Assembly (NCBI RefSeq): GCF_947498175.1 | Contig: NZ_CANMJB010000001.1 | Span: forward strand, 372,001-436,000 | Source of the DNA: an uncultured Algimonas sp. | Lineage (GTDB): Bacteria > Pseudomonadota > Alphaproteobacteria > Caulobacterales > Maricaulaceae | Direction: 5' to 3' | Length of the DNA stretch: 64,000 nt | Shown here: in pieces, positions 849-3,397 of the stretch | Layout of the letters: each line of letters begins with the position of its first letter | How positions within the stretch are numbered: position 1 is the stretch's first letter | Notes under the pieces: generated by a model | The model's input: the letters and a program-made list of their open reading frames with translations, nothing else | Database searches by the model: none | What the model was told of the DNA's origin: nothing | Program-made: the position numbers and the translations under genes

Positions 849-872
849 CACTTTACGAAAGTTTGATAGACG

Positions 873-901
873 TTGACAAGATGTAATTGTGTAGATTATG
901 T
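873..901 (+). promoter_or_regulatory. Candidate promoter for the GG-leader peptide gene
   Basis: A perfect TTGACA at 873-878 is followed, 17 bases later, by TTATGT at 896-901, a weak -10. The spacing is right for a sigma-70 type promoter, and it sits 43 bp before the start codon at 944. The surrounding DNA is AT-rich. This is a pattern match only. Confidence 0.35.
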
Positions 902-943
902 ACTAATCGTTGAGCGCTTAGGGCTTTCACTTAGGAGAAAATT

Positions 944-1186
944 ATGAGAAATCTCAGTCTTGCAGAAATGTCATCGGTTTCAGGTGGCGGTGGGTGTTCA
1001 GATTCTGATGGTCTTTTTGAAGCAATGGGTTGTGCGGCTGACAATCCTTTCACTGCAATAGGAGAGGCTATCGATATTGGCATTGAAGCTCTTTCTGATT
1101 GGCATGATGATTGGAATGATATGTTTGACAAAATGATGGGTACCGGCAAGTGGGCTCGCAATGCAGATGAAGATAAATCTGAATAG
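944..1186 (+). CDS. Small secreted-peptide precursor with double-glycine leader (bacteriocin-like)
   Basis: 80 residues. The N-terminus MRNLSLAEMSSVSGG fits the double-glycine leader consensus (L4, S5, E8, M9, V12, then G14-G15). Such leaders direct peptides to ABC exporters with a C39 peptidase domain, which cut after GG. The remaining ~65 residues are unusual: they start GGCSDSD, have two cysteines, are strongly acidic with many Asp/Glu, and contain Trp-rich DWHDDWNDMF. The start is supported by AGGAGA at 933-938, six bases before ATG. Base composition is far more AT-rich than the flanking genome, which suggests transfer. No C39 exporter or modification enzyme lies in the window, so the peptide would depend on machinery elsewhere. 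The leader is fairly sure; antibacterial activity is inference, and a signalling or other exported peptide is possible. Confidence 0.7.
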   Translation: MRNLSLAEMSSVSGGGGCSDSDGLFEAMGCAADNPFTAIGEAIDIGIEALSDWHDDWNDMFDKMMGTGKWARNADEDKSE

Positions 1187-1210
1187 CTTTTTAGGTGATT
1201 AAACTGTAAC

Positions 1211-1738
1211 TTGGGTTCAATGGTTCCCAGGTTACATCTTTGTGTTGTTTTAGCTGACAGAAAAGATTTAAAGTCGTACTACATTATTGCCGCCTTAATA
1301 ACTTTTTTTTACAAGTTATTTCCCATTATTTTTCTTTTATTGTTTGGAAGACTTCAAGAATATACTCATTCATTATTAGATAGTGTTAGTGGTGCAGTTG
1401 CTTTTATCATCAATTTTCTTTTTGTGTCTGTTCTTTTAGCCCCGCTTCTCGAAAACATTGTAATCGCATTAAGCTTTTGGCTCTCATCCTTAGCCTTTCG
1501 CTCCTTTAACATGCAAATACTTATTACGTGTGGTTTATCATTCAGTATCGCATACTTTATTCATGGGTCGAACTTTCTGGGCTTGTATTCAGGGATCTTT
1601 TTTGCCATTATGGCATTCTTTTATGTCATAATCAGCAAACATTACGATTTAAAAGATGCATACGTTCTAAGTGTCTTTATGCACTGCTTCGCTAATATTC
1701 TTACACTAATTTGGCATGTATCAAGGTCATATATGTAG
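1211..1738 (+). CDS. Small multi-pass membrane protein, CPBP-like (possible immunity protein)
   Basis: About 175 residues with roughly five hydrophobic helices. Late motifs resemble the CPBP (CAAX protease/bacteriocin-processing) family: APLLEN near 77-82, weakly like the EExxxR motif, FIH with H118, and a good HxxxN as H158-CFA-N162. The first motif is degenerate (one Glu, no Arg), so protease activity is doubtful. The gene follows the GG-leader peptide by 24 bp on the same strand and shares its AT-rich composition. In Gram-positive bacteriocin loci, CPBP proteins next to the peptide often act as immunity proteins, and the same role is inferred here. Start is uncertain: TTG at 1211 (AGGTGA at 1193-1198) or ATG at 1220, which lacks an obvious ribosome site. 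Confidence 0.6.
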   Translation: MGSMVPRLHLCVVLADRKDLKSYYIIAALITFFYKLFPIIFLLLFGRLQEYTHSLLDSVSGAVAFIINFLFVSVLLAPLLENIVIALSFWLSSLAFRSFNMQILITCGLSFSIAYFIHGSNFLGLYSGIFFAIMAFFYVIISKHYDLKDAYVLSVFMHCFANILTLIWHVSRSYM

Positions 1739-2593: not shown

Positions 2594-3397
2594 TCAAAGA
2601 CTTTCCACGACCATCCCGTCATAGGCCGGTTGCGCGATCGCGGGGAGCTCATCACGCATGACATCGTAATCCATGTCGATATGCAGGTTCGTCAGAATAG
2701 CGCGGCGGGCTTTGACGCGGGCCATCCAGGACAAGGTCTTGTCGGCGTGGGCATGTGTCGGGTGCGAGCTGTATCGTAGGGCGTCGCAGATCCAGCAGTC
2801 GATGTCGGTCAAACGTTCGAGCCGGTCTTCTTCGATTTCCCAGACATCGGGGCTGTAGGCGATCTTGCCGTCGAAGACGAAGAGCAATGTCGGCGTGGGT
2901 CCGTGCGAGGCTTCGACGACATCCACGCTGATCGGACCGCCCGGGCCGTCTATCGTCAGAGACCGGCCATCCTCGACCAAGTCCTGCAATGCGAGGATGG
3001 CCGGATGGACGCGGCCCTCCGGCATTTCGAAGCAATAGTCGAAGCGCGAGACCAGATGCTCCTTGGTGTGCGCGTCCATGTAGACCGGGATCTGGGTGCG
3101 CATGCGGTAGGCGATGGCGCGCAGATCGTCGATGCCGTGGGTTTGATCGGCATGATCGTGCGTGTAGAGCACGGCGTCGAGCCGTTTGACGTCCGCGCGT
3201 AGCAATTGTTCTCGTAGGTCTGGCGAGGTGTCGACCAGGATGCTGGTCGTGCCGCCGTCTGCGTCTTTCTCGACCAGCAGCGAGCACCGCATGCGGCGGT
3301 TTTTCGGCTCGTCCGGGTCGCAGGCGCCCCAGTCGCCGCCGACGCGCGGCACGCCGCCGGAGCTGCCGCATCCGAGGATGGTCGCGCGCAAGGTCAC
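2594..3397 (-). CDS. MBL-fold metallo-hydrolase (PhnP-like)
   Basis: 267 residues. The N-terminus MTLRATILGCGSSGGVPRVG is the usual start of PhnP/RNase Z-like metallo-beta-lactamase-fold hydrolases. The metal motif is THDHADQTHG (H80, H82, D84; Gln where many families have His), followed by DCW and a late HAH-type segment (SHPTHAHAD). Members are Zn/Mn phosphodiesterases, but the substrate here is unknown. Its start overlaps the tatD stop by 4 nt (ATGA-type), so it is the last gene of the tmk-holB-tatD chain. This neighbour set is common in alphaproteobacteria. Confidence 0.85.
   Translation of the reverse strand: MTLRATILGCGSSGGVPRVGGDWGACDPDEPKNRRMRCSLLVEKDADGGTTSILVDTSPDLREQLLRADVKRLDAVLYTHDHADQTHGIDDLRAIAYRMRTQIPVYMDAHTKEHLVSRFDYCFEMPEGRVHPAILALQDLVEDGRSLTIDGPGGPISVDVVEASHGPTPTLLFVFDGKIAYSPDVWEIEEDRLERLTDIDCWICDALRYSSHPTHAHADKTLSWMARVKARRAILTNLHIDMDYDVMRDELPAIAQPAYDGMVVESL

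Follow-up and report, generated by a model that had tools for sequence, protein, structure and literature searches.

A two-gene cassette in the window, the whole 64-kb stretch of DNA analysed here, probably encodes a horizontally acquired, class II microcin-like bacteriocin together with its immunity protein. On the best reading of the comparisons, the cassette has spread horizontally among the Maricaulales, where few relatives carry it, and its peptide would be exported in trans. The leader, the peptide family, the gene pairing and the export genes are established at the level of sequence. If the reading is correct, the Gram-positive pairing of a double-glycine (GG) bacteriocin with a CPBP-like protein would have a Gram-negative counterpart.

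The cassette and the island that carries it

The features of the cassette and its borders, in window positions, are:

about 193-830, + strand: degraded inverted DUF2959 copy with in-frame stops, left border
849-1790, no strand: AT-rich island carrying the cassette, GC minimum 0.345
933-937, + strand: Shine-Dalgarno-like AGGAG by direct reading, six bases 5' of the peptide ATG
944-1186, + strand: ORF of the GG-leader precursor peptide, 80 aa, with homologues in genomes G050, G030 and G254
944-988, + strand: leader of the peptide, 15 aa, MRNLSLAEMSSVSGG, the N-terminal part; the 65-aa core follows
1206-1235, + strand: 10-bp perfect stem with a 10-base loop, T-rich 3' of the stem, overlapping both candidate starts of the membrane gene
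1211/1220-1738, + strand: CPBP-like polytopic membrane protein, 175 aa (TTG 1211) or 172 aa (ATG 1220)
1831-2541, - strand: intact DUF2959 gene (Pfam PF11172, E 4.3e-71), right border

The first-pass annotation of the window had reported an 80-residue GG precursor with a good ribosome site, and both elements were found as described. The leader carries a GG cleavage site as in class II microcins, the cleavage itself being predicted from sequence, and it is kept in the alignment of the peptide homologues. With its 15 residues it is presumably close to the microcin V type. The Gram-negative GG leader motif is quoted in an excerpt of PMC9200625 as M[R/K]ELX3E[I/L]X2[I/V]XG[G/A], which the window leader fits except for N in place of E at position 3 and M in place of I/L at position 9. 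Within the 64-kb window the peptide is the sole ORF matching the GG-leader pattern, and no ATG ORF of at least 60 aa with such a leader arose in 2000 dinucleotide shuffles of the island. The length of the peptide ORF is by itself not distinctive, because 123 of 500 island shuffles contained an ORF of at least 80 aa; none of the 500 contained one of at least 175 aa. Chance ORFs were rejected on these shuffles (0/2000 for a GG-leader ORF and 0/500 for the longer one), and the homologues back both reading frames.

The 65-residue core has a computed pI of 4.05 and a net charge of -12, and lies within the class II microcin size of about 5-10 kDa. The earlier idea that so acidic a core hints at a new class did not hold: most microcins are neutral or anionic according to an excerpt of PMC10233263, and the acidity is therefore no sign of new chemistry. 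Nor could the two core cysteines be kept as a feature, since their counts in four homologous cores are 2, 0, 0 and 2, at differing positions. By eye, the core has no GxxxG repeats and is thus not of the two-protein glycine-zipper type of Cdz. A structure model (pLDDT 48) predicts, with low confidence, a helix over precursor residues 35-64. The peptide gave no match in Pfam, NCBIfam or PHROGs at the limits used, and none with the Pfam model of Microcin V; the same model matched the peptide of G061, one of the relatives described below, weakly and below cut-off (E 0.074). Of the two cassette proteins, PADLOC matched just the peptide, weakly and to DndH (E 0.046), and none of the 124 matches from a pattern search of genome contigs with the window peptide was confirmed.

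The polytopic protein with an HxxxN motif that had been placed 24 bp 3' of the peptide is indeed there: this gap separates the peptide stop from TTG 1211, the ORF runs to 1738, and the motif is H158xxxN162, accompanied by APLLEN and H118. The start is ambiguous (TTG 1211 or ATG 1220), and a good ribosome site was not seen by eye. The stem across the two candidate starts (fold z -1.84; 8 of 200 shuffles equally stable) is a candidate attenuator or terminator; it was not among the two sites returned by a terminator scan.

CPBP-like elements had also been ascribed to this protein, and here the evidence is divided. In the six membrane-protein sequences compared, the E of P[LI][LI]E[NS] is invariant, as is the His of the second motif, about 37 residues further on (6/6), and HxxxN is in frame in five, the sixth (L042) having it in another frame only. 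Against this, the EExxxR motif is missing: its second E is replaced by N in four of the six and by S in two, and its R is absent. The F of FxxxH is not conserved. In the HMM check the window protein had no Pfam or NCBIfam match at E <= 1, PF02517 (CPBP/Abi, Rce1-like) included, and no PHROGs match; the best PF02517 score among relatives (L005, E 0.019) was 15.6 bits against a Pfam cut-off of 22.4, which was not reached. Alignment with hhalign against 16 Rce1-like domains, all of which pass the Pfam cut-off, gave a probability of 24% and, as a single comparison, an E of 8.5e-4 over 56 columns that take in the H and HxxxN. A looser run extended to 81 columns and included the E as well; longer alignments scored worse (E 0.067 and 0.12). 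Modelling the structure of this protein gave a poor result (pLDDT 60). Foldseek with the low-confidence model(s) found no match at E <= 0.001, and VIA-align gave mixed folds, all with Z below 7 and with no CPBP entry among the 50 matches listed, a result that excludes nothing. Because EExxxR is missing and there is no Pfam match, we label the protein CPBP-like and stop short of calling it a CPBP.

Both genes are markedly more AT-rich than their surroundings, as the first-pass annotation had observed: the GC content of the island is 0.345-0.43 against 0.57-0.66 in the nearby flanks, and GC3, which is 0.61 over the window, drops to 0.30 in the peptide gene and 0.34 in the membrane gene. A feature missed at that stage is that the island is bounded by inverted copies of a DUF2959 gene, which share 74% identity over 548 nt. 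A recent inverted duplication as the origin of the flanks was rejected, given that the copies are just 74% identical. The intact right-hand copy probably lies outside the cassette. DUF2959 is present as a single copy in 11 of the 17 other genomes of the genus, with a different gene context in all eight examined. Further left lie cytochrome c maturation-like genes, named by eye from their translations, and further right are MBL-fold, TatD-like, DNA polymerase III delta'-like and thymidylate kinase-like genes, likewise named by eye.

The MBL gene was detected in 17 of the 18 genomes of the genus, and at the 16 other MBL loci there was no DUF2959, peptide or membrane gene match within the flank examined, whose length was about 1.5 kb except in L122 (about 0.8 kb) and L107 (156 bases). 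Cassette DNA was detected in one of 40 genomes searched, the own genome; the 40 included 17 further members of the genus, all without a match. The peptide profile likewise matched the own genome alone of the 18 in the genus. The cassette thus looks like a species-specific insertion, and the low GC3 and restricted distribution agree with the earlier description of a minimal, transferred cassette in an alphaproteobacterium. A prophage or plasmid origin is unsupported. Searches of viral contigs with A1 and of plasmids with the membrane protein gave nothing; in genome contigs A1 gave two loci only.

Homologues and gene pairing in relatives

The search for homologues with the GG leader, and for the same two genes side by side in relatives, both follow-ups to the first-pass annotation, gave positive results: G050, G030 and G254 each carry a homologous GG peptide with a conserved leader and the shared core motif DNPxxxxG, and each has the pair, as does the window. 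A first peptide profile, built from four partner-linked peptides, matched 15 of the 398 order genomes at E <= 0.05; in nine the match was confined to positions 1-36, the leader region. Its best new match was G030, whose core contains FEAIGTVLDNPFSTGGAIIDW where the window has LFEAMGCAADNPFTAIGEAID. A refined profile matched three of 137 family genomes (own, G030 and G050) and, in a sample of the class, two of 385 (own and one marginal).

Comparison of the cores with their leaders removed, covering 45 pairs, gave scores of 62, 53 and 50 for the window against G030, G050 and G254, none of which was equalled in 1000 shuffles. Scores as high were reached in 2/1000 shuffles for G030 with G050 and in 1/1000 for G030 with G254; G050 with G254 was weak (30/1000). 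An unrelated pair, L020-L071, reached 2/1000, which marks the noise level among 45 pairs. The four DNP-family cores are 65-74 residues long, with pI 4.05-4.43 and net charges of -9 to -13. The G061 core formed no pair with these four at <= 5/1000, and, as no similarity to them was detected, the membrane protein is not strictly tied to one core type.

From the side of the membrane protein, a search matched nine of 199 genomes, own included, three others being good; weak matches (L008-L012, E about 0.005) were left out of the member count. A four-row profile (own, G071, G050 and G061) then gave matches at E <= 0.001 in 14 of the 398 order genomes, the own one among them; five were strong, the fifth, G254, being new. 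A GG-leader gene lies beside the membrane gene in four of these five; in G071 (L018) the membrane gene was found alone, with no GG peptide nearby. In G050 the membrane gene stands between the peptide gene on its 5' side and a HlyD-type gene on its 3' side, and in G061 there is a row of membrane gene, GG peptide, aspartyl protease with PDZ, and HlyD-type gene. G254, from another family of the order, has a HlyD-type gene, a C39 exporter, the GG peptide and the membrane gene together, while in G030 the CPBP-like gene is 3' of the peptide and a HlyD-type gene and C39 exporter are on the other side. The HlyD-type genes near the pair in these four genomes were identified by eye.

All four DNP-core peptide genes (window, G050, G030 and G254) therefore adjoin a related membrane gene. 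The pairing of the first-profile peptides is no test of this, because they were chosen for their position beside the membrane gene. Two independent tests were positive: G254 was recovered by the membrane profile and then found to carry a GG peptide with a DNP core, and G030 was recovered by a peptide profile that did not include it and then found to have a CPBP-like gene 3'. As a control, eight generic CPBP-like loci (L043-L050) were searched by pattern for a GG peptide within 3 kb, and none yielded a convincing one; these and G186 were rejected as members, having weak E-values and no GG peptide nearby. The family offers a testable set in Alphaproteobacteria, with DNPxxxxG in the core and E...H...HxxxN in the partner.

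The CPBP-like genes of G254 (L042 4605-5096) and G030 (L070 6360-6880) appear frame-disrupted, and assembly errors are possible. In G050 the pair (L019) lies between a HlyD-type 5' fragment and the full HlyD-type gene, a direct repeat (551-697 and 2028-2180); the fragment is preceded by an abutting 164-aa ORF, just as the full gene is by the CPBP-like gene. G050 also has another GG-peptide locus (L080), with a different core, where a full Rce1-like protein (2603-3310, Pfam E 1.3e-16) adjoins a C39 exporter; since such a gene occurs nearby there, Rce1-like genes are not restricted to the DNP peptide family. L080 was the one locus of L071-L081 at which an Rce1-like neighbour was noted.

Export genes and a kinase-linked peptide locus

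C39 ABC exporters were sought elsewhere in the genome, as the first-pass annotation had proposed, and three C39-domain matches over the Pfam cut-off were found, two of which (L015 and L016) have the catalytic Cys/His/Asp pattern by eye. The third, L017, is without the Cys and resembles a large-protein type I system; a TolC-like ORF at L017 8106-9527 was recognised by eye only. The loci of the first two are:

L015 10459-12609, contig C3: exporter 1, C39-type, with the Cys, His, Asp pattern by eye
L015 12606-13841, contig C3: HlyD-type adaptor gene directly behind exporter 1, named from its likeness to HlyD-type genes beside other GG peptides
L016 4670-9549, contig C3: exporter 2 locus of the own genome, with C39 exporter, micro GG peptide and large histidine kinase

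Of the seven exporters from the vicinity of GG peptides in relatives that were compared with exporter 1, six share 48-68% identity with it and the seventh, that of G107, 39%. A C39 exporter and a membrane fusion protein are thus present in the genome, on a contig other than that of the window. The description of the peptide as an orphan is correct locally, no exporter adjoining the cassette, but does not extend to the relatives, where a HlyD-type gene is near the pair in G050, G254 and G030 and a C39 exporter in the latter two. Because no exporter lies beside the cassette, we infer that export occurs in trans.

The exporter 1 region also forms a second microcin-like locus of the own genome (L015 9440-9995 and 10459-13841, contig C3), in which a Gly/Ala-rich cationic GG peptide and a 64-aa membrane-type ORF are divergent from the C39 exporter and HlyD-type gene.

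The exporter 2 locus belongs to a wider group, for which loci L148-L177 and L178-L197 were compared. At E <= 1e-150, 62 of the 137 family genomes have exporter-2-like proteins, exporter-1-type paralogues included; 52 of the 137 scored above the own exporter 1 in this search. A micro-ORF lies 3' of the exporter in 27 of the best 30 loci, own included, the count leaving aside L154 and L160 (no peptide in the 3' flank) and L173 (which ends at the stretch end). The micropeptides have 20-45 codons, mostly with the leader MREL[TS]xEE[IL]EVVxGG, and cores of 5-9 residues in 23 of the 27 (YPIIVDF, MPIIIDF, QPIVIWL and others); one core has 11 residues and three of the 27 have tandem repeats. In all 21 loci with a longer flank (20 plus own), a long co-directional ORF begins 55-167 bp after the micro-ORF, and HE[LI]RTP is present in 17 of these ORFs. 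The six scanned with Pfam were all histidine kinases, L191 among them although it is without HE[LI]RTP, with a receiver domain in five and TPR matches below cut-off in two; the long ORFs of L189 (cut by the contig end), L195 and L196 are not confirmed as kinases. A membrane-spanning fragment resembling the HlyD N-terminus, 63-119 aa long, lies 5' of the exporter in 18 of 26 loci by pattern search (own, L016 9286-9549), and its presence without a full adaptor raises the question of export into the periplasm.

The combination of exporter, GG micropeptide and kinase is a candidate Gram-negative peptide pheromone system, with export, signal and sensor, and may be more surprising than the window cassette itself. 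GG-type peptide signals in Gram-negatives were reportedly proposed by Dirix et al. in 2004. HetC of Nostoc is described in an abstract as a candidate signal exporter. Among the literature matches listed, no such exporter/peptide/kinase system in Alphaproteobacteria appeared. A simple 14-mer test detected no upstream motif common to the three GG-peptide genes of the own genome, and hence no link between the kinase-linked locus and the window cassette.

Function and alternative readings

The cassette resembles the class II microcins (microcin V; CvaC/Cvi/CvaB/CvaA) in its acidic core of 5-10 kDa, in the small membrane-protein neighbour, and in a host genome that has a C39 exporter and a HlyD-type adaptor. 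It differs from them in that the core matches no family in Pfam, NCBIfam or PHROGs at the limits used, the exporter is not adjacent, and the host is one of the Maricaulales and not of the Enterobacterales. Enterobacteriaceae or their kin are the source of the validated class II microcins counted in excerpts of PMC9746304 and PMC10233263; the same excerpts describe a five-part layout, which the cassette fits in size, small membrane neighbour and export genes, and immunity proteins that are not findable by sequence likeness. Known microcin immunity proteins are given there (PMC10233263) as 51-216 aa with a median of 82 aa, a range that includes the adjacent CPBP-like polytopic protein, at 172-175 aa above the median, its immunity role being putative.

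Cdz (CdzABCDI) of Caulobacter crescentus, as excerpted from PMC5380434, is likewise alphaproteobacterial: it exports small proteins through a type I system and has a small immunity protein in the inner membrane. However, it has two glycine-zipper proteins, a transporter within the cluster and an immunity protein with three predicted spans, whereas the window has a single acidic core and no glycine zipper; the L015 locus on contig C3 looks closer to Cdz than the window cassette does, its layout being reminiscent. The Nap island of Neisseria gonorrhoeae shares horizontally acquired GG peptides, a C39 peptidase and a Gram-negative host, but the excerpt of PMC11798529 describes Nap peptides as cationic, mediating autolysis and having other partners. 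The one paper listed that joins microcin, double-glycine and CPBP, on Treponema, describes no such pair in the excerpt; the wider literature, among the matches listed in excerpt, deals mainly with Gram-positive bacteria.

The CPBP-like partner also invites comparison with those bacteria. Abi/CPBP bacteriocin immunity proteins of Gram-positive bacteria were reportedly described by Kjos et al. in 2010, a study cited in PMC9298176. As there, the window has a polytopic protein beside a GG peptide, with E, H and HxxxN alignable with Rce1-like proteins; unlike there, it has no Pfam match, lacks the second Glu and the Arg of EExxxR, and is found in a Gram-negative host.

If the microcin-like reading is right, the precursor leader would be recognised by exporter 1 (L015 10459-12609), whose C39 domain would cut after Gly-Gly, and the 65-residue acidic core would leave through the HlyD-type adaptor (L015 12606-13841) and a TolC-type channel. 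The core would then inhibit related cells, acting at or near the inner membrane. In the producer, we infer that the polytopic protein serves immunity rather than processing: placed in the inner membrane, it would act on the peptide or its target, blocking it through binding or cleavage. Several observations go against this reading, among them the distance of the exporter from the cassette, the lack of a GG peptide near the membrane gene of G071, the small number of peptide homologues (four), and the apparently disrupted membrane gene of G254 and G030, which is odd for an immunity gene beside a live toxin.

It is unlikely, but conceivable, that the acidic core is instead an extracellular signal, with the CPBP-like protein either processing this signal or modulating a sensor kinase. 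Roles of CAAX proteins in bacteriocin loci include immunity, processing, receptor and kinase functions in an excerpt of PMC9298176, which lists SilX, SpdC and Abx1 as Gram-positive examples with proposed or shown processing or kinase-modulating roles; such proteins need no catalytic motifs to affect histidine kinases, and a possible task of SilX is to process a signal peptide. Moreover, another C39 exporter of the own genome is accompanied by a histidine kinase and a GG micropeptide. Yet inspection by eye turned up neither a kinase nor a regulator, be it in the cassette or close to the four pairs in relatives, the core length of the DNP family is microcin-like, and the window peptide gene and the kinase-linked peptide gene have no upstream motif in common. 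A role for the membrane protein as the maturation protease of the peptide, with protection coming from elsewhere, seems quite improbable. Bacteriocin processing is reported for CAAX/CPBP proteins in the same excerpt, and hydrolase-type genes neighbour other GG peptides of the order (L020; L071; L072, below cut-off), but the EExxxR motif that PMC9298176 names as required for catalysis is missing, and a C39 exporter would already explain leader removal.

We also regard it as doubtful that the cassette is a decaying remnant of a former bacteriocin locus which has lost its exporter and is kept for nothing, or just for its immunity gene. The missing adjacent exporter and the DUF2959 pseudogene next door would fit such decay, as would the G254 and G030 membrane genes, which look disrupted, the retention of this gene alone in G071 and, in the window, the weak ribosome site (by eye) and the stem across the start of the membrane gene. 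In the window, however, neither reading frame is interrupted, the peptide has a good ribosome site and a GG leader, and a plausible exporter and adaptor are encoded elsewhere in the genome. The microcin-like reading is therefore the one that we prefer.

Streptococci have a dispersed GG-peptide warfare network, and a comparable arrangement in the Maricaulales can be imagined, speculative and of low probability though it is. Swappable cassettes, the window being one, would borrow shared C39 exporters; partners of hydrolase or protease type (CPBP-like, aspartyl-PDZ, S33) would provide proteolytic protection or maturation; and the separate, family-wide locus of exporter, 5-9-residue GG pheromone and sensor kinase would set the timing. 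At the other GG-peptide loci of relatives (L071-L081), where neighbours were judged by eye and with a few Pfam scans, and at L020, the following hydrolase-type and unnamed genes were recorded:

L020 7730-9022: aspartyl protease with PDZ
L071 6618-8036: S33/abhydrolase
L072 7366-9366: S33/abhydrolase, below cut-off
L071 5018-5791, L073 5733-6473, L077 7358-8925 (two members), L079 1633-2403: unnamed 246-273-aa family

The five proteins of the unnamed family, all beside other GG peptides, are related with pairwise E-values down to about 3e-31 and had no Pfam match at E <= 0.05; they have SxGG and CxSxC motifs and are protease-like by eye only. G053 (L071 4043-9966) has an array of five consecutive GG peptide genes close to a single exporter; two of the genes are near-identical copies, which raises the question of cassette gain by duplication.
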